Origin: Bacteroidaceae bacterium
GTDB lineage: Bacteria; Bacteroidota; Bacteroidia; Bacteroidales; Bacteroidaceae
Direction of reading: 5' to 3'
Length of the DNA: 32,467 nt
Assembly (NCBI GenBank): GCA_017958545.1
Contig: JAGDCM010000113.1
Location: forward strand, 1 to 32,467
In this document: piece after piece, positions 3,936 through 32,467 of the stretch
Layout: each line of letters starts with the position of its first letter
How positions within the stretch are numbered: position 1 is the first letter of the stretch
Program-made: the position numbers and the translations under genes
Notes under the pieces: model-generated
Seen by the model: the letters and a program-made list of their open reading frames with translations, nothing else
What the model was told of the DNA's origin: nothing
The model's database searches: none

Positions 3936-3966
3936 TTTGCAATTCCCGAAAATTGCAGTACCTTTG
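3936..3966 (+). promoter_or_regulatory. Promoter of small RNA copy 1
   Basis: TTTG at 3936-3939 and TACCTTTG at 3959-3966 are separated by 19 bases, fitting the Bacteroidetes -33/-7 consensus. The predicted start is near 3973. The -7 element belongs to the 43-base block shared with 23724-23766. Confidence 0.7.
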
Positions 3967-4000
3967 CACCGTGTTTTTCATGGTATTAGATTTAAGGTTA
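3958..4000 (+). repeat. 43-base exact repeat, copy 1 (promoter -7 plus RNA 5' part)
   Basis: Identical base for base to the minus strand of 23724-23766. It begins in the -7 element (GTACCTTTGCACC), covers the predicted transcript start and runs through ATGGTATTAGATTTAAGG to GGTTA. After this the two copies diverge, except for the hairpin loop region (TGTCGTGA). Confidence 0.9.
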
Positions 4001-4040
4001 ATGGAAGTAAGGCTGTCGTGATGACAGCCTTACTTTTTTT
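3973..4040 (+). ncRNA. Small terminator-capped RNA, copy 1 (~68 nt)
   Basis: A predicted independent transcript running from the promoter start near 3973 to a strong intrinsic terminator. The terminator has a perfect 12-base-pair stem (AGTAAGGCTGTC 4006-4017 with GACAGCCTTACT 4023-4034), loop GTGAT and seven Ts ending at 4040. The 5' part is identical to copy 2 at 23684-23751. The downstream genes run the other way, so this unit is not the leader of any gene here. It contains a 13-codon frame (3980-4021, MVLDLRLMEVRLS, stop in the hairpin loop), which could be a leader peptide or chance. I do not know a family name for it. The hairpin may also stop transcripts arriving from the ECF-like gene on the other strand. 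Confidence 0.65.
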
Positions 4041-4060
4041 ATCGCCTTAAAATCACTGAA

Positions 4061-4540
4061 TTAAAGCCTCTTGGCAATGAGCGGAGCCACAATGCTCATA
4101 AGCACCAGACCCGGGATGCCCGTAACGAAGTCCTGAAAAGCATAAGCAGCACCCGTGAAAGGCCACTCCACAAGACCGGCCACCGCCCATGCCGCTACAA
4201 CAGCCAGCACAGCGGAATGAATCCTGATGCCCCAGAGACGCACCGTCAGGGCTGCAGCCACACACAGGAGGATGCCCTTGAGCAGCATGTCGGGCAGCAT
4301 CACACTGGCAGGAGCACCGAAAATCAGGTAGCCCAGGAGAGGAGACATAACGGCTGCATAGATGCCTGTCAATACACCGTAGCGCATGACACCCACAAGA
4401 GTGAACCAGTAGATGGGCAGGAAAGCGATACCACCACCCGGCACAAGATGGAAGAGATGGGGCAATGCAAGGTTTGCCGCAACGAAGAGAGCACAGCGCA
4501 GACTGCCGAGGCTGATACTCTGAGTCTTTGTCCTATACAT
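4061..4540 (-). CDS. ECF-transporter S-component-like membrane protein
   Basis: A small, very hydrophobic protein with about five or six membrane segments and a short Arg/Lys-rich N-terminus. The pattern (LVPGGGIAFLPIYWFTLVGVMRYG, then LLGYLIFGAPASVMLPDMLLKGILL, ending in LVEWPFTGAAYAFQDFVTGIPG) resembles the substrate-binding S components of energy-coupling-factor vitamin importers, but no substrate can be assigned. I prefer the ATG at 4540 (159 residues) over a GTG at 4573 (170 residues), because the GTG abuts the stop codon of the upstream lyase gene. It is probably co-transcribed with the lyase. Neither an A-component ATPase nor a T component lies nearby; group II ECF S components share these with others elsewhere in the genome. 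Confidence 0.55.
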   Translation of the reverse strand: MYRTKTQSISLGSLRCALFVAANLALPHLFHLVPGGGIAFLPIYWFTLVGVMRYGVLTGIYAAVMSPLLGYLIFGAPASVMLPDMLLKGILLCVAAALTVRLWGIRIHSAVLAVVAAWAVAGLVEWPFTGAAYAFQDFVTGIPGLVLMSIVAPLIAKRL

Positions 4541-4573: not shown

Positions 4574-6586
4574 TTAGAACTGCCAGCCGCGGAACTTGCG
4601 ACCGCTGCCCTGCAACTCGGCTCCGATGAAGAAACCGACACCCGTAGGCTGGTTGTAAGCCACATTCTGCGCAGCCACAGAGGCGCGATAGACGGGATCG
4701 TGGAGGAAGCAGTGGAAACGATAGGGCGTGGGCAGAGGAGAGATATAAACACGCAGGAACTTGTTGTCGGCGGTGCGTGTCACCACCTCTTCACGCCAGT
4801 CGCCGATGACATCGCAGCAGAGCGAGGGATTGGACTTGGTGCCGTTGTTGAACATACAGCCCTCCATCTGGAGCAGCGTCTCGGGACGCACATTGGAATT
4901 GGGATTGATGGTGAGCTCGAGCTTGGCCTCGGGGTCCTCCTCTCCCACCCCGGCCTGAACGGCAGCAGAGGGGCGGTGGTATTTGGTGATGGCCTCGTGG
5001 TCGAGCAGTTCGCGGCAAAGGTCGCCGTCCCACCAGATGGAGAAGTTGATGCTCACGCGTGTGACAGAGTCGATGAGATTGCCGTGATAGTCACGTATGC
5101 CGCGGGTGTTGGACGCCCACATCTCCCAACCGGGATTCTCGGGGTCGATATCAGCAGCAAGACCGCGACCCACGTCGTCGTTGTGGGGCAGTTTCCACAG
5201 CACCTCACCCGTCTGCGCATCACGGAACTCGCTCCAGTACTGGTCCTCATGCACATCCCACACATAGAGATGCTCGGAGAGGGGCAGCATGGGAGAGAGG
5301 TGTATGGCGTCGCCGTGACCGAGGTGAGTATTGTAGAGGCCGCGTCCGTCGTCGTCGACACACATCGAGCCGTATGTTATCTCATCACGTCCGTCGCCGT
5401 CGATATCGGCCACGCGCAGGTTGTGGTTGCCCTGACCGCCCCATCCCTTCCACTCGGGAGCGGCCGAGTCGAACACCCAACGCTGCTTCAGCTGCTTGCC
5501 GTCCCAGTCCCAGGCGGCGAGCACGCTGCGCGTGTAGTAGCCGCGGCACATCACTGCCGAGGGGTGCACGCCGTCGAGATAGGCCACGCAGGCCAGATAG
5601 CGCTCGGAGCGGTTGGCATAGTTGTCGCCCCAGGCCTGGAGATCGCCCTGCTGGGGCACGTAATCCACGGTGCAGAGCGCCTTACCGGTCTTACCCTCGA
5701 AGACGGTGAGATACTCGGGAGCGCCCTTGATGAAACCGCCGCGCCTGCCCTTCTGGTCCTTGCGGAAACGCTCTGAGGGATAGCGGTTGGCAGTGTAGTG
5801 GGAATCAGTCTTGTCGCCCATACCCACACGGTAGTCGGCATTGGCATCGCCTATCACATTGCCCACACCGTCGCGTGTGCCGTCACCGGTCTTCAGCACC
5901 AGTTCGCCCTTACCGTCACCGTCGAAATCGGCAGCCATCATCTGCGTGTAGTGCGCTCCGGAACGTATGTTGTTGCCCATGGCGATGCGCCACATGCGAT
6001 GGGTGCCGTCCTTGGAGGGCTTGCCGCCCAGTTTGTAGGCATCGATGTAGGTCTGGTTGGTGACACCGCTCTGCGAGTTGTCGCGCGAATTGGAAGGGTC
6101 CCACTTGAGGATGAGTTCCATCTCGCCGTCGCCGTCGAGGTCGGCCATCGTGGCATCGTTGGCATTATACACCACGGGCTTGCCGTCGTAGTCCACCTCG
6201 TCGGCAGGCTGGTCGAGAGGTATAGAGAGATAACCGATAGGAGCACCGGCCTCTACAGTCCACTCACCCTTTATCTTGCCATCCACGGGACGCACACTAT
6301 AGGTGGTGGATTTTGTCACGGAGTTTTCGTCAATATATGTAGTAGATTCCTTCGCAGTGCGCAGGCCTATCTTCTTGCCATCACGAAGCACTTCGAAGCA
6401 CACATCCTCCGGGTCGCTCTCGAGATAGCGCCACGAGATGAGAACATGGTCGGCATCGGTGCGCATTGCCACCACACCGCGACCCAGCTTCTCACGCTGC
6501 ATCTTGGAATAATCATAGGCCGTCTGAGACGATACAGACAGACTCATCATGACACATAACAAGGTCAAAAAGAAGACTTTCTTCAT
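4574..6586 (-). CDS. Rhamnogalacturonan lyase, polysaccharide lyase family 11
   Basis: A secreted pectinase that cleaves the rhamnose-galacturonate backbone of rhamnogalacturonan I by beta-elimination. The true start is the ATG at 6586 (670 residues), giving the signal peptide MKKVFFLTLLCVMMSLSVSSQ; the frame is open further upstream, but that would run through the promoter. PL11 features include an N-terminal Ig-like part (GRGVVAMRTDADHVLISWRYL). The beta-propeller has repeated Ca-binding loops: DLDGDGEMELILKWDPSNS, DFDGDGKGELVLKTGDGTRDG and DIDGDGRDEITYGS. The conserved NTHLGHGDAIHLS and the C-terminal FHCFLHDPVYR are also present. Length matches single-domain PL11 enzymes. It has its own promoter between comF and this gene. 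It lies near no SusC/D pair, so it is not visibly part of a polysaccharide utilisation locus here. Confidence 0.92.
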   Translation of the reverse strand: MKKVFFLTLLCVMMSLSVSSQTAYDYSKMQREKLGRGVVAMRTDADHVLISWRYLESDPEDVCFEVLRDGKKIGLRTAKESTTYIDENSVTKSTTYSVRPVDGKIKGEWTVEAGAPIGYLSIPLDQPADEVDYDGKPVVYNANDATMADLDGDGEMELILKWDPSNSRDNSQSGVTNQTYIDAYKLGGKPSKDGTHRMWRIAMGNNIRSGAHYTQMMAADFDGDGKGELVLKTGDGTRDGVGNVIGDANADYRVGMGDKTDSHYTANRYPSERFRKDQKGRRGGFIKGAPEYLTVFEGKTGKALCTVDYVPQQGDLQAWGDNYANRSERYLACVAYLDGVHPSAVMCRGYYTRSVLAAWDWDGKQLKQRWVFDSAAPEWKGWGGQGNHNLRVADIDGDGRDEITYGSMCVDDDGRGLYNTHLGHGDAIHLSPMLPLSEHLYVWDVHEDQYWSEFRDAQTGEVLWKLPHNDDVGRGLAADIDPENPGWEMWASNTRGIRDYHGNLIDSVTRVSINFSIWWDGDLCRELLDHEAITKYHRPSAAVQAGVGEEDPEAKLELTINPNSNVRPETLLQMEGCMFNNGTKSNPSLCCDVIGDWREEVVTRTADNKFLRVYISPLPTPYRFHCFLHDPVYRASVAAQNVAYNQPTGVGFFIGAELQGSGRKFRGWQF

Positions 6587-6611
6587 AGCATAAGATTTAT
6601 GTTCTGCACGG

Positions 6612-6619
6612 CAAAGATA
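6612..6619 (-). promoter_or_regulatory. -7 element for the PL11 lyase gene, with adjacent inverted repeat
   Basis: The minus strand reads TATCTTTG, matching TAnnTTTG, 25 bases before the lyase ATG. Directly upstream lies a perfect 6-base inverted repeat with a 6-base spacer (ACATAT 6621-6626, ATATGT 6633-6638). It occupies the space between the -7 and -33 positions, a possible operator. No TTTG at -33 is evident, which fits a promoter needing an activator. Confidence 0.5.
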
Positions 6620-6641
6620 CACATATTTTTTTATATGTACC

Positions 6642-22725: not shown

Positions 22726-23586
22726 CTAACCGAGATAGCCTCTCAGGAGACTGTTCTTGTTAGCAGCACGAAGTTTACGGATGCTCTTTTCGCGTATTTG
22801 TCTTACGCGCTCGCGAGTCAGTCCGAACTTATCGCCAATCTCCTCCAGAGTGAGTTCGCTACCGTCAATACCGAAACTCAGTTCGATGATTGCACGTTCG
22901 CGCTCGCTCAGACAATCCAGCGCACGACTTATCTCCTTCGAGAGAGATTCGCGCATCAGTATGTTGTCCGCTGTGGGAGAATCGGGGTTTGTCATCACAT
23001 CCAGAAGGCTGTTGTCCTCACCCTCCACAAACGGGGCGTCAACGCTGACGTGGCGACCGCTGGCGCGCAGTGAGTCAGCAATCTTATCGGGCTGCTCGTC
23101 CACCAGTTCTGCAAGTTCCTCTGCAGAGGGTTTGCGCTCGTGCTCCTGCTCGAACTTCGTAATCGCCTTGGAAATCTTGTTCACAGCGCTCACCTGATTG
23201 AGGGGCAGACGCACGATACGCGACTGCTCGGCAAGAGCTTGCAGGATTGTCTGACGAATCCACCATACAGCATAAGAGATGAATTTGAAGCCTCGCGTCT
23301 CATCAAACTTTTCGGCAGCCTTTATCAGTCCCACGTTTCCCTCGTTAATCAAGTCCGGCAAGGAAAGTCCCTGGTTCTGGTACTGCTTTGCCACACTGAC
23401 CACAAAACGCAGATTGCTCTTGACCAACTGATCTTGAGCTTCACGGTCACCGCGGCGGATACGCTGCGAGAGCTCCACTTCCTCCTCCACTGTGAGCAAC
23501 TGCTCGCGACCTATCATCTGAAGATAACGGTCCAAAGAAGCCGAATCACGGGAGGTGATACTTTTGGTAATTTTAAGCTGTCTCAT
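22726..23586 (-). CDS. rpoD: Primary sigma factor RpoD/SigA
   Basis: A 286-residue housekeeping sigma factor of the short Bacteroidetes type, lacking the long region 1.1 of E. coli. Region 1.2 is [17 protein letters not shown]. Region 2 contains [27 protein letters not shown] and the -10 recognition/melting segment [15 protein letters not shown]. Region 3 contains [14 protein letters not shown] and [16 protein letters not shown]. Region 4.2 is the helix-turn-helix [28 protein letters not shown]. Bacteroidetes RpoD recognises the TTTG/TAnnTTTG promoters found throughout this window. It has its own consensus promoter at 23633-23664 and heads an operon with eptA-like, RecQ-tail and GH97 genes. 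Confidence 0.96.
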
Positions 23587-23632: not shown

Positions 23633-23664
23633 CAAATGTATAACATTTTTCTGAACCGACCAAA
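23633..23664 (-). promoter_or_regulatory. rpoD: Consensus promoter of rpoD
   Basis: On the minus strand TTTG (23664-23661) and TACATTTG (23640-23633) are separated by exactly 20 bases, a full match to the Bacteroidetes consensus. It lies 46 bases upstream of the rpoD ATG and just downstream of the terminator of small RNA copy 2. Confidence 0.75.
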
Positions 23665-23683
23665 TTTTATGCAAAAAATACAT

Positions 23684-23751
23684 AAAAAAAAAGAAGGTTG
23701 TCTCACGACAACCAATCTTTTACTAACCTTAAATCTAATACCATGAAAAAC
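23684..23751 (-). ncRNA. Small terminator-capped RNA, copy 2 (~68 nt)
   Basis: The minus-strand counterpart of the unit at 3973-4040. The predicted start is near 23751, and the end is a 7-base-pair hairpin (GGTTGTC, loop GTGA, GACAACC; plus-strand 23696-23713) followed by TTC and nine Ts. Compared with copy 1, the third stem pair changes from C-G to U-A on both sides, a compensatory change. A 13-codon frame at 23744-23703 reads MVLDLRLVKDWLS with the stop again in the loop. It lies between the TonB receptor stop and the rpoD promoter, pointing towards rpoD, but rpoD has its own promoter beyond the terminator. It may also end read-through from the receptor operon. Confidence 0.65.
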
Positions 23752-23766
23752 ACGGTGCAAAGGTAC
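23724..23766 (-). repeat. 43-base exact repeat, copy 2
   Basis: Reverse complement identical to 3958-4000. It covers the -7 element, start region and 5' portion of the small RNA. Confidence 0.9.
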
Positions 23767-23787
23767 GGCTTTTTTTCAAATCTGCAA
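23758..23787 (-). promoter_or_regulatory. Promoter of small RNA copy 2
   Basis: On the minus strand TTG (23787-23785) and TACCTTTG (23765-23758) have 19 bases between them, the same geometry as copy 1, although the spacer sequence is unrelated. Conservation of promoter geometry argues for real transcription. Confidence 0.65.
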
Positions 23788-23864: not shown

Positions 23865-26531
23865 TTAGAACTCAACACCCACTTTCCCGACCACAGAGAT
23901 GCTCTGCGCCGGAATATAGCTGTTGAGCAAACTTCCGTACTTGTAGCTCGAATTTGTGACGTTGTATACATCCACGGAAAGCATCAGTTTCTTGTCGTGT
24001 TTCTTCGGACGGTACTTTATTCGCCAGTCAGCACCAAGATTCAGCATCACCTGCGGACCATTGTCATAGAACGAGTCCATATGTGTCTTCTCTCCGATAA
24101 TGGCATCAAGCAGTTTTTCTATATTCGCGCCGTCCTCCGGTGCTTCCCGTTTCAGTTGAGCCATGAACATCCTCAAACGCATCTTCTCTTCTGCTGTTAA
24201 CAATCTCGCGAGATCCTGTGCCGTTGCGTTAATGAACGTATCCCAAATGCGCATCACAGTCTGACGCACCGTCTCATCCGGGAAATTTTCCATCACATTC
24301 TGCATACTGTAAATAGCGTCAGCGTAGTCATCCCTTGTCAAAGTCATCATCCCTTCCGGCACCATCGACGAGAGATGGTTCTGCACCAACGGCGTCGCCG
24401 TCATGAAACTCACGTTTCCTCTCAGCCACAGTTCTCCGCCACGTCTTGAATTCACCACACGTTGTCCGGCAATAATGTTCATAATGAACTCCGGTATGTT
24501 GCCGATACGCATCCCCTCTGTCGAACCGTAGTTCTCCAAGCGGAAGGCTTTCTGGTACGTAGCATTCATGTTGATGTAAGTACCCCTGTCCTTCGGAGCC
24601 CATTCACCCACAATTTCCACACCTCCGACATTTACATGTCCGGCATTGTAGAAGGGAGAACCGCCGTTCTTCAGCGTCTCCGTGGGAGAATATACCACCT
24701 GGTTCTGCGACATATTGAAGAAAGCATTCAATTCCAGACGCAGTCCGAGGTCTTGGCGCGTCCATGCACCTGTCAGCGAGAAGGCGTCCATCGTCTGCGA
24801 CTCCATCTTGTCGCTACCCGAGAATAACGAGAGTTTGGAAGCCCGGTAGAAATACGGAGCATCCACGTAGGCACGCGAGTAACTGAGTCGTGTGCTCCAT
24901 TGCGGCGATGGCAGATATATCAATGCTGCACGCGGAGAGAACGTGTTCGTCGTATAGTCGTCGAAACGTCTCTTGTGGTCATATCGCAGACCACCGTTGA
25001 ACACCAACTTGTTCGGTATGAAATAATGCTTCAACTGCACGATACCGGAAGCCGTGAAGTCCTTTCCCCTCTCCACAATATCATTGACCGCGTAGTGTAT
25101 CTTTTCGTAGTCGTAGCCCAACTGCAGACGGCTGTCCGTGAGAAACATATGTTCATACTGCAGACCTGCCAACACAGTTCCGTGCTGCCCCTCATCGTTG
25201 CCGTAGTTCCACGAACCGTTAGCTCCGATACCGAAGACGAAGTCCTTACAGTTCAGCGTTTCCCAAAGACCCTCCGTTTTCACATCGTCCAACCATTCGA
25301 GAGACAAATCCGGAAGATTGAGAGATTTCAGCATCAGATATGACACACCATACGGCACCTTGTCTCCCAATACATTATAAATCTGACGCTTCTCATAGCG
25401 TGCGAAGGCATTTGCCGACAGAGAGAAGCGCCCCCACGTGTGGTCGTAGTCCATATCGATATTTATCGCGGTACGCGACTGTCCCGGCTTCTCTCCCTCG
25501 TTCACCGTGTATTTATCGTACGTGTAAGGGGTATCGAAATTCAGAATCATGTAGAAAGGCACCGGTTTCGAGTGGTTTCCCGTCACTGTGATTCTGAAAT
25601 CGTTCCAGCGCGCCTTCAGACCGAGGTCGAAAGCCGGCAGACCGCAGAATCCTCCGACCGTGAATTCGTGCCCGTTCACGTTGATTTTCTCTCCGGAGAC
25701 ATTAGTGAAAGCAGCCCAAAAGGCGAAATCCTTAAGCATATCTCCCTGTCCGTACATATACGAGGCACCCACAGTTCCGTGCATACCGCCTCTCACCCTC
25801 ATTTCGCTACCCGAGAGTCTCGCACCGCTCTTCGTGAAGATATTCACTACGCCCGAAAGCGCCACGTTACCGTACAACGATGATGCCGGACCTCTCAACA
25901 CCTCTATGTGATCTATCTTGTCCACCGAGAGATCGTAGTCCATCGCCTCGCCGTTGGTGGCTCCCGAGTTGAGTCTGTGTCCGTCCTGCATCACGAGGAT
26001 ATTCTCCTGCGCATACCCGTACATTCCTCTCAGAGCCACGTTCGATTCCGTGTCTTCAATTCTCACCATACCCGGCACGAAAAGGCAAAGCAGTTCTCTC
26101 ACCGTGTGACATCCCGAGATGCGTATCATCTCCTCCGTGATGATTGTGACGGGCACGGGTGCCTCATCCAACGACTCAGCCTGCTTTGATGCCGTCGATA
26201 TTGTGGTTCCCTTGCGGAGATTGTCCAGCATGTCCTGGAAACGCGGATCTTCTCCGTATGCCTTGAAATACGGGTCAATGGTCAGAAGTCTCTTACACCA
26301 TTGCTCCGACTCCGCAAACCTGTCCTGATAGAACGCCGAGAGAGCCAACATACGGTATGCCCCCACGAGTTCCTGCCCCTTGAGTCGTCCCAATTCGCTC
26401 TTGAGCAGAGAGTCCACCTCCTCGAAGCGCCCCCTATCGAAGTTCTCGGAGCTCGTACTCATTACCTGATTCTGCGCCAGCATTATCGTGCTGTGCAGAC
26501 AGATGAGACATATGATTGTTTTCAGACGCAT
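23865..26531 (-). CDS. TonB-dependent receptor with TPR-like N-terminal extension
   Basis: An 888-residue outer-membrane receptor. The signal peptide (about 1-19, ending LAQ) leads not into the usual carboxypeptidase-regulatory-like domain but into a helical TPR-like region (about 25-110: ENFDRGRFEEVDSLLKSE, YRMLALSAFYQDRFAESEQW). The plug follows (PVPVTIITEEMIRISG, VALRGMYGYAQENILVMQDGHRLN, IEVLRGPASSLYGNVALSGVVNIFTKSG), then a 22-strand-type barrel. Near the C-terminus a helical insertion of about 105 residues (720-824) interrupts the barrel, before the final strands ending in GKVGVEF. Its ATG is one base after the histidine kinase stop, so it is the last gene of the signalling operon. The ligand is unknown; the context suggests that uptake and sensing are linked. 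Confidence 0.88.
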   Translation of the reverse strand: MRLKTIICLICLHSTIMLAQNQVMSTSSENFDRGRFEEVDSLLKSELGRLKGQELVGAYRMLALSAFYQDRFAESEQWCKRLLTIDPYFKAYGEDPRFQDMLDNLRKGTTISTASKQAESLDEAPVPVTIITEEMIRISGCHTVRELLCLFVPGMVRIEDTESNVALRGMYGYAQENILVMQDGHRLNSGATNGEAMDYDLSVDKIDHIEVLRGPASSLYGNVALSGVVNIFTKSGARLSGSEMRVRGGMHGTVGASYMYGQGDMLKDFAFWAAFTNVSGEKINVNGHEFTVGGFCGLPAFDLGLKARWNDFRITVTGNHSKPVPFYMILNFDTPYTYDKYTVNEGEKPGQSRTAINIDMDYDHTWGRFSLSANAFARYEKRQIYNVLGDKVPYGVSYLMLKSLNLPDLSLEWLDDVKTEGLWETLNCKDFVFGIGANGSWNYGNDEGQHGTVLAGLQYEHMFLTDSRLQLGYDYEKIHYAVNDIVERGKDFTASGIVQLKHYFIPNKLVFNGGLRYDHKRRFDDYTTNTFSPRAALIYLPSPQWSTRLSYSRAYVDAPYFYRASKLSLFSGSDKMESQTMDAFSLTGAWTRQDLGLRLELNAFFNMSQNQVVYSPTETLKNGGSPFYNAGHVNVGGVEIVGEWAPKDRGTYINMNATYQKAFRLENYGSTEGMRIGNIPEFIMNIIAGQRVVNSRRGGELWLRGNVSFMTATPLVQNHLSSMVPEGMMTLTRDDYADAIYSMQNVMENFPDETVRQTVMRIWDTFINATAQDLARLLTAEEKMRLRMFMAQLKREAPEDGANIEKLLDAIIGEKTHMDSFYDNGPQVMLNLGADWRIKYRPKKHDKKLMLSVDVYNVTNSSYKYGSLLNSYIPAQSISVVGKVGVEF

Positions 26532-26532
26532 A

Positions 26533-27354
26533 CTATTTCAGTCGGATTGGAATACGTATTGTGAATGTGGTGCCTTCTCCTTCCTTTGAGGTGAACGACA
26601 GCTGACCGCCGTGTCTCTCCTGCACAATCTCCCTTGTTATTGGCATTCCCAGTCCTGTGCCTTTTCCTATCGGTTTTGTAGTGAAGAATGCCTCGTAGAG
26701 TCCGTTCTGCACTTCCTGCGTCATACCCATACCGTTGTCCGCTATAGACACGACGAGTTCTTCTCCCTCACGATGCACGTCCACATTGATTGTCGGCATA
26801 TATCCTTCCTGTCCCAGGGCCGAGCGCTCCTCCACCGTGTAGCAGGCATTGTTCATCAGATTAAGCACAGCACGCGAGAAGTCCTGCGGAATCACCATCA
26901 TCTGGGGCATCTGCTCCTCATACTTCTCCGTGATGCTGATGTTGAAGTCTTTGTTGCTCGCCCTCATGGCGTGGTACGAGAGCCACACGTACTCATGCAC
27001 CAGATTTGCCACGTTGGTGGGCAGGAACTCACCCTCTTTGCCGCGACTCTGCATAAGAATACTTCTTATTATGTCGATGGCACGCTCTCCATGCTCCTCA
27101 ATTTTCTTGAGGTTCTCCTTGAGGTCTTCGGCTATTTCCTGCATCTCCTCCGCATCTTCTTTCTCCAGCCTGTCGATGGAATCTTCGATTATCGACATCA
27201 GGTCGGACAGCAGTTTGCCCGACATCTTCGAGAAGTTGATGACGAAATTCAGCGGGTTCTGTATTTCGTGTGCAATACCCGCGGTGAGCATTCCTATTGA
27301 AGCCATTTTCTGCTGCTGGTGCAACTGCTCCTTGAGTTTTTCAATCTCGGTCAT
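26533..27354 (-). CDS. Soluble sensor histidine kinase
   Basis: A 273-residue kinase without membrane segment or sensor domain: a short coiled coil (EIEKLKEQLHQQQKMASIG) runs straight into the H box GIAHEIQNPLNFV, phosphoacceptor His29. A long dimerisation helix follows. The ATP-binding domain has N box LNLMNNACYTVEE, G1 VVSIADNGMGM, F box EAFFTTKP and G2 GKGTGLGMPITREIV, all intact. It is paralogous to the C-terminal half of the upstream propeller protein, with the same helical spacing and shared motifs (ENLKKIEEHGERAIDIIRSIL against QNLEKIEQHGLSTTRILKAME). Its ATG overlaps the stop of that gene as ATGA. It probably acts in a complex with it. No response regulator is visible in the window. 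Confidence 0.9.
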   Translation of the reverse strand: MTEIEKLKEQLHQQQKMASIGMLTAGIAHEIQNPLNFVINFSKMSGKLLSDLMSIIEDSIDRLEKEDAEEMQEIAEDLKENLKKIEEHGERAIDIIRSILMQSRGKEGEFLPTNVANLVHEYVWLSYHAMRASNKDFNISITEKYEEQMPQMMVIPQDFSRAVLNLMNNACYTVEERSALGQEGYMPTINVDVHREGEELVVSIADNGMGMTQEVQNGLYEAFFTTKPIGKGTGLGMPITREIVQERHGGQLSFTSKEGEGTTFTIRIPIRLK

Positions 27355-30080
27355 AGCGTTATGGTGAATTCCGTATATTTATATTTTTCCGATGTCACGG
27401 TGATATTTCCGCCGTGGTCCTGAATTATCTGTTGTGCCAGGTAGAGTCCCAGTCCGGATGCCTCTGCCGTTGGTTTTGTGGTGAAGAACGGGTCAAACAC
27501 CTTCTCTATCACAGCGGGCTCGATACCCATACCGTTGTCCCACACACGTATGCTGACATGCCCGTCGGGCAGACTCTCCAGAATGAGTGCCAACCTGGGT
27601 TCGTAAGAGTACGGTTTCTTCGGCGTGGCAGCCTCTTTCTCCATCTCTATTCGACGTCGCAGGGCGTATGCCGCATTCCCGAGCAGCGATGTCACCACGT
27701 GCGATATCTGTTCGGCATTCACATTCGCCATCACAGCTGTATCCGGACGCTTCCAGTCGCATTGCACGTGTCCTTTCTCTATATCCTCTTTATAATAATT
27801 ATAGAGCATATCCACATCCTGCTGGCATATCACGCAGAGGTCCGTCTCCTTTCTGTCCTGACTGCGCTCTTTCAGCACCTCCTCCATAGCTTTCAGTATT
27901 CGTGTGGTGGAGAGTCCGTGCTGCTCTATCTTCTCCAGGTTCTGGTCCATCATGTTGAGGATGTCCTCTGCGTCCTCGTAGCTTTCTGCCGACATTGCCA
28001 CGCGCTCTGTCTCTATATCCTCTCTCAGGTCGTTGATGAGTCCGCGGGTGAGATGCGAGAAGTTGCCCACATAGTTCATCGGGTTGAGTATGCGGTCGAT
28101 GAGTCCCTTCGTCAGTTTGCCCACAGTTGCCTCGCGCTCCTGTCTGAGCAGCGCGTTCTGGGCTTCGCGCAGGTCGCGCGTGCGTTCCGATACTATCTGC
28201 TCCAGTTTCAGCTGCCGCTTCACCATCACACTCACACGCCATCTGTACAGCAGGTATATTATCACCAGACCCACCACGATATACATCGCGATGGCATATC
28301 CGCTCTTCTCAAACGGCGGACGAAGCACCACGAGCATCCTGTCGCTCTCCACCACGTTGCCATACGGGGTCTTCGCTCTCACCTGTATTGTGTGGCTGCC
28401 ATATGACAGATTATAGAAGTCCAGTTCCTGGTCTTCACCCCACGGACTCCAGTTGTCTGTGAGACTGAGTCGGTAACTGTATTGTGTCTTACCTATGAAA
28501 TCAGTTTTATCCGTTGCCACAGAAATAGACAGACTGCGTCCGTGCTGCTTGCGCGTCCGGATATACACTTTCGGCATTATCGGACGGAGTTTGGCGGCCT
28601 CCTTCAGGTCCATACGTATCAGTCCGAAGGCTCCTCCCAGCCATGCCACATCTCCGTCCACCATGATGTTCTGCACGCTGGTATTCTTCAGGGCGCCAAG
28701 CCATTCCGTCTGTATATTGCTCAGCGTGGAGTCCACATCCACAAGTCCCATGTCGTTAGGCAGACACTTCCAGTGGCGTCCGCTCTTGTCCCTGTAGTCC
28801 AGCAGCGGTGAAATGTCCTTGTTGTCCTTCTGCACGAAAGCCGTTCTGCCTCCCTCCGACCAATAGGTCTTTCTGTATGTATCCGTAATCCACAGACTGT
28901 CGCCCTTTCCCTCGGTGAAACGGTACACATACGGGATGCTGTCCACCATCTCGGCCTTCCTGCCGTCGAAATATCCCTTGTATATTCCGTCCACTGCACC
29001 GAAGAGGAAACTCTCCTCGTCCAGCACGTGGAGCGACAGAGCGTAGAGGTCGCTATACATCTGTCGGACGTTTCCGTCCTCGTATATGAACACGCCCTCT
29101 GCTGCTGCTATCAGCGGTTTGCCGTCGGTCGTGAGCACCAGTTGCTGGCACGACTGGTTGATTTGCGGCAGACGGGAGAATCTATCCCCCTCCCTCACGT
29201 AAAGACCCTGCAGAGTACCCACAAAGAGGCGATCCTGACTCTGCAGCACCGTGTTCACCTGTCCCTTCAGTCCGTCCAGTTCCGAGAACTGAGTATATAC
29301 CTTCGATGTGGAGAAATTGAACAGACCGTTCTCCGTAGCGCCCCACACCGTGCCTTTTCCGTCGTAGCACAATGCCACCACGCTGTTGGAGCACAGTCCC
29401 GTCGATTCGTCCAGCTGCCATATCTTCTCCCTCATCCTGTCGAGCGCCACCACACCGCATGTCACAGTGGCCATCAACGTCGTTCCGTCGGGAAGCACCA
29501 GACGTTCGTGCACTTCCGCATCGCCCCAGCGGTCCACAGCATTCGAGGGTCGCGCTCCTCTCTGTTCGTTCGCCACGCGCAGTCTTCCCTTCTCCATATC
29601 CACATGGTAGACATCGCCCGCACTCGTCACAATGCCCACGCCGTGCTGGTCCTCATAGAGGCGCGCCACTTCACCGAAGCGCTGGCTCTCCACGCTGTCG
29701 CTCACTACGTAGTGCACGCTGATACTACCGTCGTGACGGGCTTCCACCCACCCCAGCAGGTTCAGTCCGCCCACCCAGATACGGTCTTCCTTGTCGCTCA
29801 GCAAACTCGTAAAACGACTCTTTCTGGGCGAATATATCGTGTTCCATTCCACACCGTCCCACACCACCAGGCCTTCGAAGTTGGCCACATAGATGCGACC
29901 CTCCTTGTCGGCGATGATATCCATGCTCTGGTTGTGCGCCTTGAAGGTGCTGGCCGGTATGTTGTGGAAGAACGGCAAAGCCACACTCTCTCCCGAGATC
30001 TGCGCCGCAACCCTCTCCGCCTGCCCCGCGAGGAGCATGCACAAAAGGCAAAGCATCTGTATGACTCTCACTTTCTTCAT
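27351..30080 (-). CDS. Reg_prop beta-propeller sensor with degenerate histidine-kinase core (Asp for His)
   Basis: A 909-residue membrane sensor. A signal peptide (about 1-27) is followed by two-component regulator propeller repeats (IIADKEGRIYVANFEGLVVWDG, LLSDKEDRIWVGG, ALCYDGKGTVWGATENGLFNF). A Y_Y_Y domain (YSYRLSLTDNWSPWGEDQELDFYNL), one membrane helix (about 595-614), a coiled coil, and dimerisation and ATPase domains come next. The H box reads GLIDRILNPMNYV: Asp662 (codon 28095-28097) replaces the phosphoacceptor His. The ATPase motifs look complete: Asn802 in GNAAYAL, Asp848 in DNGMG, FFTTKP and GLGL at 876-879. There is no HTH output domain, so it is not a hybrid two-component system. 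It probably senses a periplasmic signal and works through the intact kinase encoded next. Confidence 0.88.
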   Translation of the reverse strand: MKKVRVIQMLCLLCMLLAGQAERVAAQISGESVALPFFHNIPASTFKAHNQSMDIIADKEGRIYVANFEGLVVWDGVEWNTIYSPRKSRFTSLLSDKEDRIWVGGLNLLGWVEARHDGSISVHYVVSDSVESQRFGEVARLYEDQHGVGIVTSAGDVYHVDMEKGRLRVANEQRGARPSNAVDRWGDAEVHERLVLPDGTTLMATVTCGVVALDRMREKIWQLDESTGLCSNSVVALCYDGKGTVWGATENGLFNFSTSKVYTQFSELDGLKGQVNTVLQSQDRLFVGTLQGLYVREGDRFSRLPQINQSCQQLVLTTDGKPLIAAAEGVFIYEDGNVRQMYSDLYALSLHVLDEESFLFGAVDGIYKGYFDGRKAEMVDSIPYVYRFTEGKGDSLWITDTYRKTYWSEGGRTAFVQKDNKDISPLLDYRDKSGRHWKCLPNDMGLVDVDSTLSNIQTEWLGALKNTSVQNIMVDGDVAWLGGAFGLIRMDLKEAAKLRPIMPKVYIRTRKQHGRSLSISVATDKTDFIGKTQYSYRLSLTDNWSPWGEDQELDFYNLSYGSHTIQVRAKTPYGNVVESDRMLVVLRPPFEKSGYAIAMYIVVGLVIIYLLYRWRVSVMVKRQLKLEQIVSERTRDLREAQNALLRQEREATVGKLTKGLIDRILNPMNYVGNFSHLTRGLINDLREDIETERVAMSAESYEDAEDILNMMDQNLEKIEQHGLSTTRILKAMEEVLKERSQDRKETDLCVICQQDVDMLYNYYKEDIEKGHVQCDWKRPDTAVMANVNAEQISHVVTSLLGNAAYALRRRIEMEKEAATPKKPYSYEPRLALILESLPDGHVSIRVWDNGMGIEPAVIEKVFDPFFTTKPTAEASGLGLYLAQQIIQDHGGNITVTSEKYKYTEFTITL

Positions 30081-31645
30081 TTCAGTTTCAAAAATTTCAC
30101 ACGGTTACCCACATAGTGATTCCACTCGCTCTCACTAAGACCTTCCTTCAACTTGTCGCGAGTGGTCTTCGCGAGCTTCTCCACAGAGAGTTCCCATTGC
30201 GTTATCTTACCCGTCGACATGCCGCACAGCATCTTGCTTCCCACAGCTTCGATACACATCGGCCACACGTCGAACCTGTAACTCGTGGAGACGACATTGT
30301 TCACCTTGTCCAACCTGTCGAGATTCCACATATGCAATTCCTTGTCGCGCCCGATAGACAGCAGCAGATTCTCCTTCGTCACGAGCGTCAGTCCCGTGAT
30401 GGCCGCCTTGTGACCCACGAGCATCTTATACTGCACACCGCCCTCCTTCATCACTGCGATATTGCCCGACGAGAATCCTACGTAGAGCATATCCGTGCGT
30501 CTGTCGAACTGCGCCGCTGTGACGATGTCCGTCGACGGCGGTGCCAGAGTGAGGTAGCGTCCCGTCGAGAGTTCCGTGCCTCCCACCGTTCCGTCGCTGA
30601 AGAAATAGAGCACTTCGTGACTCGTGATAGCCATCACGTTGAATCTCTTCTGAAGTTCCTCCCTCACAACAAGGGGCACGCGCTTCTGCACATCGAACAT
30701 CACCACCCTGTGACGGGCGCAGGCCATCAGTTTGCCGTCGGACAGTTGCTTCAGCATGAAATACTCCGTCCCGGGCAGCGTGTATTCCTCCATCTTACCA
30801 GTGTAGGTAAAGTGACACAGACTGCCGTTGAAACTCAGGGCCCAGAGACCGTCCGGCACCTGCGCCATACCTCTCCAGTCGTATTTCTTGTCGGAAAAGA
30901 CGGTAGTAATGTCTTTTTCCTTCCAACTTAATATCTCACCGTATCCAGTACATATCATAAATGACTTCCCGTCGTACGACGTATCGATGTCGTAGATGGC
31001 GCTGTGACTCGGCACCATCGTTTCCACGGTTTCATCGCTCACAAGGGCGCGGAACACCTCCGACTGATACTCGTCGTCGCCGTATTTCTCCTGGAAGTAC
31101 CACGATGTCAGAGCCAGTTTGCGTGCCAGGTTGACATTGCCGTTCTCGCGGGCCAGCACCGAGGCATTGCCCAGTGTGCGTGCCAGGTTCCTGTAGCCCA
31201 GTGTGTCGGCATCGTTCTTCGAGCGCAGCGCCTCCATCTCCTTCCGCTCCGCTTTTTCGCGCTCTTGCTGCGCCTCCTGTGAGGCGGCTTCTGCCTGCTG
31301 TCGTGCTGCGTTGGCCTTTGCCTCCGCCGCGCGTGCCAGTTCGCTCTCGCGCTCCGCCTCGCGGGCATACTGTTCTGCCAGTTCGCGCTGCTTCTCCGCG
31401 CTGTCGCGCTGTGCATCCGACATCATACGCTGGTCGCGGGCGATTTCCCCCATCTGCTCCGCTACGCGCTTCGCCACAGAGGCTTTCTCCTCGCCCTCCT
31501 TCAGTCGCTGGAGCTCTGCCTCCATCTCGCTGATACGCTGGGCATCTTCGTTCTCACCTCTCATCGTACCCACATAGTATGCCGCCGCAAGACCCAGTCC
31601 TGCGACCACAATTCCTATCAGCACTATGAGATGACCTCTCTTCAT
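30077..31645 (-). CDS. Membrane-anchored coiled-coil/WD40 beta-propeller protein
   Basis: A 522-residue protein with one N-terminal membrane helix (about 5-25) and a long Ala/Glu/Arg-rich coiled coil (about 33-145). A helical stretch follows (DTLGYRNLARTLGNASVLARENGNVNLARKLAL). A WD40-like propeller then runs from about residue 190 (HSAIYDIDTSYDGKSFMICTGYGEILSWKE to HKAAITGLTLVTKENLLLSIGRDKELHMWNL). The end (TTRDKLKEGLSESEWNHYVGNRV) matches the tail motif LT..EW..Y found in bacterial WD40 signalling proteins. It is probably a scaffold holding the phosphatase and kinases together; this is inference from architecture and from operon position (ATGA overlap with the sensor gene, 24 bases after the phosphatase). 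The coiled-coil DNA is markedly GC-rich. Confidence 0.8.
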   Translation of the reverse strand: MKRGHLIVLIGIVVAGLGLAAAYYVGTMRGENEDAQRISEMEAELQRLKEGEEKASVAKRVAEQMGEIARDQRMMSDAQRDSAEKQRELAEQYAREAERESELARAAEAKANAARQQAEAASQEAQQEREKAERKEMEALRSKNDADTLGYRNLARTLGNASVLARENGNVNLARKLALTSWYFQEKYGDDEYQSEVFRALVSDETVETMVPSHSAIYDIDTSYDGKSFMICTGYGEILSWKEKDITTVFSDKKYDWRGMAQVPDGLWALSFNGSLCHFTYTGKMEEYTLPGTEYFMLKQLSDGKLMACARHRVVMFDVQKRVPLVVREELQKRFNVMAITSHEVLYFFSDGTVGGTELSTGRYLTLAPPSTDIVTAAQFDRRTDMLYVGFSSGNIAVMKEGGVQYKMLVGHKAAITGLTLVTKENLLLSIGRDKELHMWNLDRLDKVNNVVSTSYRFDVWPMCIEAVGSKMLCGMSTGKITQWELSVEKLAKTTRDKLKEGLSESEWNHYVGNRVKFLKLK

Positions 31646-31669
31646 ATATTATAAACAGTAAACCGTAAA

Positions 31670-32467
31670 CTACTTTCTCTTGATCACCAACACCGTGATA
31701 TCATCGCTCTGAGGAGCCTCGCCCACGAAGTTCTGCACCTGACTGCGGATGCCTTCCACCATTCCTGCTGCAGAGGCTGTGACGTAGTTGGGCAGGAGTG
31801 CCTCCAAAGCCTCTTCTCCGAACTGCTCGTGCGATTCGTTCTCGGCCTCCGTCACACCGTCGGTATATGTCACCAAGATGTCGCCGGGTGCCAGCGTCAC
31901 TTCGCCGCTCGTGTAGGGCAGTCCCTCAAAAGCTCCCAGAGCCATATTCCCCTGTGTGGGCAGTTTCTCCACCGCTCCGTCGGGATGCAGCACGTAGGGC
32001 TGGTTGTGACCCGCATTGGTGTAGTCGATACGACCGGTCTCCAGGTCCATCACGCCATAGAACACGGTGACGAACATGCTGTCCAGACTCTCCGAAGCGA
32101 GCATATTGTTGGCCTCGCTCATTACGGCTGCCGATGACAGGTTGTGCATACCGGTGGCTTTGATGAGAGTGCGACTCACCGCCATGAAGATGGCTGCCGG
32201 AATACCCTTGCCGGACACATCGGCCATCGTGAATCCCAGATGTGTGTCGTCGATGCGGAAGAAATCGTAGAAGTCGCCGCCCACATCCTTTGCGGCCTCC
32301 ATCGAGGCATTCAGGTCTATCGTGTCGGCAAGCGGCATCTTCAGACGGAACTCGCGCGGCAGTATGGCGTGCTGTATCTCGCGTGCCACGGAGAGGTCGC
32401 TGTGCAGGTCGCGCAGTTCGCCGCGCTCCTTCTCGGCCTCCGTCACGTAAGCTATCTGCTCCACAGC
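31670..32467 (-). CDS. SpoIIE/RsbU-type PP2C serine phosphatase (cut by right edge)
   Basis: The C-terminal 265 residues of a PPM-family serine/threonine phosphatase; the frame continues past base 32467, so the N-terminal part, probably a sensor or membrane region, is missing. A coiled-coil linker (RGELRDLHSDLSVAREIQHAILP) is typical of RsbU/SpoIIE proteins. The catalytic motifs are complete: KDVGGDFYDFF, MADVSGKGIPAAIFMAV, NAGHNQPYVLHPDG, LVTYTDGVTEAEN and SDDITVLVIKR, containing the metal-binding Asp residues. Such enzymes usually dephosphorylate STAS-domain anti-anti-sigma proteins; no STAS or RsbW-type gene is in the window. It is upstream of, and presumably co-transcribed with, the WD40, sensor, kinase and receptor genes. 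Confidence 0.9.
   Translation of the reverse strand, partial: AVEQIAYVTEAEKERGELRDLHSDLSVAREIQHAILPREFRLKMPLADTIDLNASMEAAKDVGGDFYDFFRIDDTHLGFTMADVSGKGIPAAIFMAVSRTLIKATGMHNLSSAAVMSEANNMLASESLDSMFVTVFYGVMDLETGRIDYTNAGHNQPYVLHPDGAVEKLPTQGNMALGAFEGLPYTSGEVTLAPGDILVTYTDGVTEAENESHEQFGEEALEALLPNYVTASAAGMVEGIRSQVQNFVGEAPQSDDITVLVIKRK

Follow-up and report, generated by a model that had tools for sequence, protein, structure and literature searches.

Results

Two FopS loci in the window

The window, the whole stretch of 32,467 nucleotides that was analysed, belongs to a MAG of 1,903,888 bases (78% complete) and harbours two short loci on opposite strands, each with a promoter, a seed and a terminator. 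By direct comparison, the 43-mer at 3958-4000 is the exact reverse complement of 23724-23766, a repeat already recorded in the initial annotation and one that chance cannot account for within 32 kb. The annotation's placement of TTG 19 nt ahead of TACCTTTG in both copies was likewise confirmed when positions were checked. A comparison with Rfam, which it had recommended, matched both copies end to end with FopS (RF04319), at scores above the gathering score of 56 bits, and the two loci are thus known in kind. Within this catalogued sRNA family they are nothing out of the ordinary.

3937..3966, plus strand: copy 1 promoter of the sigma-ABfr type, TTG (3937-3939), 19-nt spacer, TACCTTTG (3959-3966)
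3971..4043, plus strand: copy 1 FopS sRNA (RF04319), cmscan 77.7 bits, gathering score 56, model positions 1-71 of 71
3971..4000, plus strand: copy 1 R1/R1' seed, first 28 nt predicted unpaired in the fold, identical to copy 2
4011..4040, plus strand: copy 1 terminator GGCTGTC-GTGAT-GACAGCC followed by a T run, fold z -5.46
23758..23787, minus strand: copy 2 promoter of the sigma-ABfr type, TTG (23787-23785), 19-nt spacer, TACCTTTG (23765-23758)
23683..23753, minus strand: copy 2 FopS sRNA (RF04319), cmscan 82.8 bits, gathering score 56, model positions 1-71 of 71
23724..23753, minus strand: copy 2 R1/R1' seed, first 32 nt unpaired in the fold, identical to copy 1
23684..23713, minus strand: copy 2 terminator GGTTGTC-GTGA-GACAACC followed by a T run, fold z -2.11 (7 of 200 shuffles fold as well)

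In the predicted folds of both copies the 5' R1' seed is single-stranded, and a lone Rho-independent terminator hairpin comes after it. As its reverse complement the copy 1 seed reads ...CTAATACC ATG AAA AAC. The transcripts of about 68 bases first predicted, with 5' ends at 3973 and 23751, need a small correction, as the Rfam 5' ends lie two bases earlier (3971 and 23753) and the matched spans are 73 nt for copy 1 and 71 nt for copy 2. The stems GGCTGTC/GACAGCC (arms 4011-4017 and 4023-4029) and GGTTGTC/GACAACC (arms 23713-23707 and 23702-23696) are separated by one compensated pair, the C-G to U-A swap on both arms that had been noted at first. The loop GTGA, described as common to the two, is found as such in copy 2 (4 nt), while copy 1 has GTGAT (5 nt).

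The expectation of a larger dispersed family of regulatory RNAs holds in that FopS is such a family, but not within this genome, where only two FopS were found in a search of the 78%-complete assembly, both inside the window. The promoter word GTACCTTTGCACC, with which a whole-genome search had been suggested, was rejected as a family marker: it is a generic promoter that occurs at 18 places in the genome, and only the two in the window are FopS.

Genomic neighbourhood and synteny

Copy 1 faces no gene, as had been noted, the next long ORF being convergent and ending at 4061. Copy 2 lies between a receptor gene and a sigma factor gene.

22726..23586, minus strand: RpoD-type sigma-70 factor, downstream neighbour of copy 2 (Pfam Sigma70_r1_2, r2, r3, r4)
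23633..23664, minus strand: separate promoter-like site of the downstream sigma gene, TTTG-20-TACATTTG (sequence reading)
23865..26531, minus strand: TonB-dependent receptor, upstream neighbour of copy 2 (Pfam TonB_dep_Rec_b-barrel and Plug)

The relative G030 keeps both copies, copy 2 ahead of rpoD and copy 1 with the same pair of neighbouring genes, and the compensated stem variant of copy 1 is common to its G030 orthologue. The arrangement of copy 2 and rpoD, which share one strand with 96 nt from the end of the sRNA to the start codon, is preserved also in the relative G033, and could suggest that copy 2 acts in cis on the rpoD-type gene, as its leader or attenuator, with the seed mattering for read-through control. 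This is improbable. Past the copy 2 terminator the sigma gene is preceded by a promoter-like site of its own, which argues against copy 2 being just a leader of that gene, and copy 1 is the same RNA with no gene downstream. The link to rpoD is moreover local, since among 29 other loci (contig ends shorten a few of them) only 2 have rpoD (tblastn) next to FopS.

At the far end of the window (27351-32464, minus strand) there is a cluster of signalling-type genes, among them a two-component-type propeller/histidine kinase and a WD40-like repeat protein (Pfam); the gene at 31670-32464 (minus strand) presumably encodes a protein resembling SpoIIE/PP2C-type phosphatases.

Conserved anatomy of FopS copies

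Altogether 48 FopS copies, mostly best matches and including the two of the window, were read from 47 loci (L019-L049 and L073-L088). They were picked by a TTAGATTTAAGGTTA-type word, and the constancy of that word is therefore due to selection. The 30-nt seed was unchanged in 42 of the 48 copies and the inner stem GGTTGTC/GACAACC was present in 36. TAnnTTTG upstream and a stem of at least 7 pairs were found in all 48, the latter compared with 121 of 480 shuffled controls, which excludes the refutation named in the initial annotation, that the block is only the end of a mobile element with neither promoter nor stem conserved elsewhere. Conservation follows the transcription unit, as proposed there: it covers the transcript, with its near-constant seed and maintained stems, and not the flanks.

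A GNRA loop was rejected as a fixed feature of FopS, since 47 of 48 copies had one only with a scoring that favours such loops, and 30 of 48 without this bonus. Under the unbiased scoring a GNRA loop, with or without one extra base, was still seen in these 30 copies against 1 of 480 shuffles, and together with the constant inner stem it may perhaps reflect a protein or tertiary contact.

Distribution of the family

FopS matches at E<=1e-3 were present in 33 of the 37 genomes of the genus sample (over the cut-off in 26), with 1-5 matches each, and in 8 of 24 genomes from other families in the same search. A sample of the order, for which at least 90% completeness was requested and to which the host genome was added, had matches at E<=1e-3 in 45 of 198 genomes and 33 of 147 genera; 37 genomes were over the cut-off and up to 14 matches were found. 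The family thus spans many genera of Bacteroidales. FopS-like DNA was also found in 16 plasmid-collection records (Bacteroides 8, Parabacteroides 3, Phocaeicola 3 and Prevotella 2). The full-length pattern of the form common in the genus matched 15 stretches in named records, and the four for which an animal was named were from ruminants; we infer that the host probably represents an uncultured, ruminant-associated genus of Bacteroidales.

Spread by viruses was considered and rejected: 8 viral contigs contain the 27-base seed without a mismatch, but only one of them (L068) is over the FopS cut-off. A separate observation is that the Bacteroides phage BX-TP2 (PQ571285.1, L108:974-1043) carries a full FopS of 78.9 bits, over the cut-off and near the end of the induced phage genome in a stretch without annotated genes.

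Predicted pairing at translation starts

The seed was compared by RNAduplex with 293 start regions from the window and 20 further stretches (391 kb), a non-random sample of 22% of the genome in which the first ATG of each ORF was called mechanically. At <=-16 kcal/mol, a line chosen among five printed thresholds, 41 start regions were predicted to pair with the seed. Among 60 dinucleotide-shuffled seeds the mean was 12.9 (sd 4.8), and among 60 controls that kept the anti-start 5' part it was 21.1 (sd 7.0); no shuffle of either kind reached 41. At -14 kcal/mol the real count was reached by 0 of 60 full and 7 of 60 part-kept shuffles, and at -12 kcal/mol by 2 of 60 and 22 of 60, respectively. 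The excess over shuffles is thus confined to strong predicted pairing, and much of it stems from the anti-start part alone (21.1 versus 12.9). Leaving out five stretches, four of which had been picked for holding candidates or SusC genes, gave 28 of 238 start regions at -16 kcal/mol, compared with 9.2 (reached by 0 of 60) and 14.8 (reached by 2 of 60) in the two controls. In-frame internal ATGs had predicted pairing at -16 kcal/mol in 11 of 281 cases and equalled the start regions at -12 kcal/mol (118 of 281 versus 118 of 293). By a simple hydrophobicity rule, signal-peptide-like genes made up 20 of the top 41 as against 60 of 293 overall (Fisher p 9e-6). The third-ranking site lies at the start of a lyase gene in the window itself.

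4574-6586, minus strand: family 11 rhamnogalacturonan lyase gene (Pfam RGL11_C)
6566..6621, minus strand: predicted FopS pairing site in the translation start region of the RGL11 lyase (RNAduplex -22.0 kcal/mol, rank 3 of 293)

Only two SusC-family genes were over the cut-off in the host's 78%-complete assembly (G000:C41:417-13724), and their predicted pairing was -19.9 and -16.2 kcal/mol, in a stretch that was chosen for them. Two SusC genes are few for a gut Bacteroidales, and the target class known from Bacteroides is accordingly small here.

With up to 3 mismatches allowed to the 18-base complement of the seed, the host genome contained 4 non-FopS sites, compared with 2 for the same pattern read backwards. 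Each of the four is an ATG with which an ORF of at least 426 aa begins within the fetched DNA. One of these ORFs encodes an OAD beta subunit (Pfam) and a second, without a Pfam match, presumably an outer-membrane-like protein; the remaining two we take to encode GH3-like and DUF1680-like proteins. Across 41 genomes of the genus the seed-complement pattern had 167 matches, against 84 for the backwards pattern and 67 for one shuffled pattern; FopS copies account for an estimated 58 or so of the 167 and another RNA for at least 10, so that the excess over the genus as a whole is weak. The OAD beta subunit, the RGL11 lyase and both SusC genes offer testable targets in an uncultured, SusC-poor lineage.

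Both loci could alternatively be mobile-element ends, or decoys for promoters or sigma factors, with no base-pairing function; the copies are dispersed and promoter-bearing, and the FopS of BX-TP2 lies near a phage end. We consider this very improbable, since conservation spans the transcript and not its flanks, with a near-constant seed and maintained stems, both copies are syntenic in G030, and strong seed pairing at start regions exceeds that of shuffles. The decoys suggested in the initial annotation also fit poorly with a seed that resembles the antisense of start codons, and with FopS being reported to repress translation by pairing (Ruttiger et al. 2025, PMC11697453).

Absence of RRM matches from the genus

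The same source describes RbpB, an RRM-1 protein of B. thetaiotaomicron, as binding FopS and acting as its antagonist (PMC11697453). The corresponding domain, RRM_1 (PF00076, the RbpB fold), was sought in six frames and found neither in the 78%-complete host genome nor in any other of the 37 genus genomes, while 16 of the 24 genomes from other families in the same sample had it. Incomplete assembly is an unlikely explanation for so uniform a lack in 37 genomes of one genus; an RRM that has diverged strongly could account for it.

In the order sample RRM_1 was found in 140 of 198 genomes, those absent from this list being counted as without it in the cross-tabulation. Among the 45 genomes with FopS at E<=1e-3, 28 had an RRM match and 17 had none, and for the 37 with a best E<=1e-7 the numbers were 22 and 15. 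The host genome is among these 15, of which 14 are at least 90% complete, and up to 6 FopS matches occur in them. Genomes without FopS at E<=1e-3 were divided into 112 with and 41 without RRM. There was thus no positive association of FopS and RRM in the order sample (odds ratios 0.60 and 0.53; Fisher p 0.19 and 0.11), where the sampled genomes are related and the counts therefore are not independent events. In each of the lineages f22, f26, f42, f65, f102 and f103, both FopS-bearing genomes seen were without an RRM match; in f83 one had a match and the other none, and G093 and G185, of another genus in the host's family, had both RRM and FopS.

FopS apparently persists without an RRM partner. 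In this genus, where the protein was not found, FopS presumably does without RbpB or relies on an unrelated protein, and the published circuit of FopS and RbpB cannot be assumed to be universal. In literature on RRM proteins and Prevotella, including PMC12119571, no statement was found that RRM proteins are missing there, most subscription papers lying outside the searchable text.

A longer R1-bearing RNA in part of the genus

A seed complement with one mismatch that recurs in ten genomes of the genus was rejected as a conserved target, as it proved to be the strand opposite to a longer RNA that has a promoter to itself. This RNA, of about 300 nt or more (L148-L157, e.g. L157:1677-2049, and L168-L181), has a promoter, an internal FopS-like R1 block and a terminator-like hairpin. 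Read in ten genomes, it displays a TACCTTTGCA promoter, the R1-like block (at least 42 invariant bases in nine aligned), a hairpin about 300 nt further on and, in most, a T-rich tail; its fold z was -3.73 (L157). A model of the R1 part matched 14 of 49 genus genomes (G011 weakly, at 41.5 bits), with no match in the host genome and none in 32 genomes from other families. No Rfam family matched at its gathering score in the two sets of loci searched (ten and six), the sub-threshold matches in the set of ten being CsrC (24.7 bits, E 0.00088, cut-off 61), L20_leader (27.9 bits) and BTnc231 (31.8 bits, cut-off 80.4), and the RNA may be an uncatalogued R1-bearing sRNA. In its central hairpin 58.7% of cells were paired, a figure that was equalled or surpassed when the partner was shifted by one column, probably owing to loop gaps set in the wrong place in the alignment.

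Discussion

We are highly confident that both loci are FopS genes, each presumably transcribed alone into an RNA of about 70 nt that consists of seed and terminator and would pair at mRNA starts. What the sequences show is family membership, the promoter and terminator, their conservation and strong predicted pairing in excess at start regions, most of all at those of signal-peptide-like genes. Each gene would be transcribed from a housekeeping promoter of the sigma-ABfr type into an RNA with an unpaired 5' seed of about 30 nt and an intrinsic terminator hairpin. Being antisense to a generic start region (CTAATACC-ATG-AAA-AAC), the seed most likely binds the opening codons of mRNAs that encode secreted and outer-membrane proteins of glycan use. 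Pairing over the start codon would block initiation and could keep ribosomes off until substrate is present, while the two copies would add dosage. Transcription, translational repression and the conditions under which they would operate are here drawn by analogy from B. thetaiotaomicron.

A further proposition, for which we see an even chance, is that an entire uncultured genus, along with several other Bacteroidales lineages, runs FopS control with no RRM protein at all, that RbpB is a lineage-specific addition (and reported antagonist) instead of a needed partner, and that in some members of the genus the R1 seed has passed into a longer structured RNA or been retained there. If so, RRM-less lineages would be natural RbpB-less backgrounds in which FopS is either unopposed or served by another RNA-binding protein. 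It is the RRM-less setting that merits a specialist's time.

Relation to known systems

That the copies are GibS or another R1-bearing sRNA instead of FopS is hardly conceivable: R1 is common to GibS and FopS and copy 1 weakly matches GibS (38.7 bits) and BTnc231 (27.2 bits), but these scores are far under the gathering scores of 115 and 80.4, and copy 1, matched end to end by the FopS model, is 73 nt long where the two other models have 142 and 154 positions.

FopS was described by Ruttiger et al. 2025 (PMC11697453) in B. thetaiotaomicron, where 14 paralogous members of about 65-70 nt have canonical promoters and are induced by bile salts; by pairing at their start codons, its 5' R1' seed stops translation of SusC-like and glycosidase mRNAs, and its conservation is described within Bacteroidaceae. 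The present setting differs from that of Bacteroides in three respects. Two copies are found here compared with 12-15 in the Bacteroides species named there (PMC11697453), the RRM_1 protein was not found in the genome or in the 37 genomes of the genus, and the whole 78%-complete assembly has two SusC genes over the cut-off.

GibS (RF04182; PMC7366714) has the 5' R1 seed in common with FopS. It differs by a second seed, R2, and a different promoter type (PMC11697453), and by a model of 142 positions against which copy 1 falls well below the cut-off. BTnc231 (RF04180) resembles copy 1 in a similar 5' start and in a GUCGUGAGAC-like hairpin in the alignment, and differs from it in the 154-position model and in the low score of copy 1. 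The closest likeness is to FopS of B. thetaiotaomicron (PMC11697453), with which the two loci share length, a canonical promoter, the R1' seed, a single terminator hairpin and occurrence in more than one copy.
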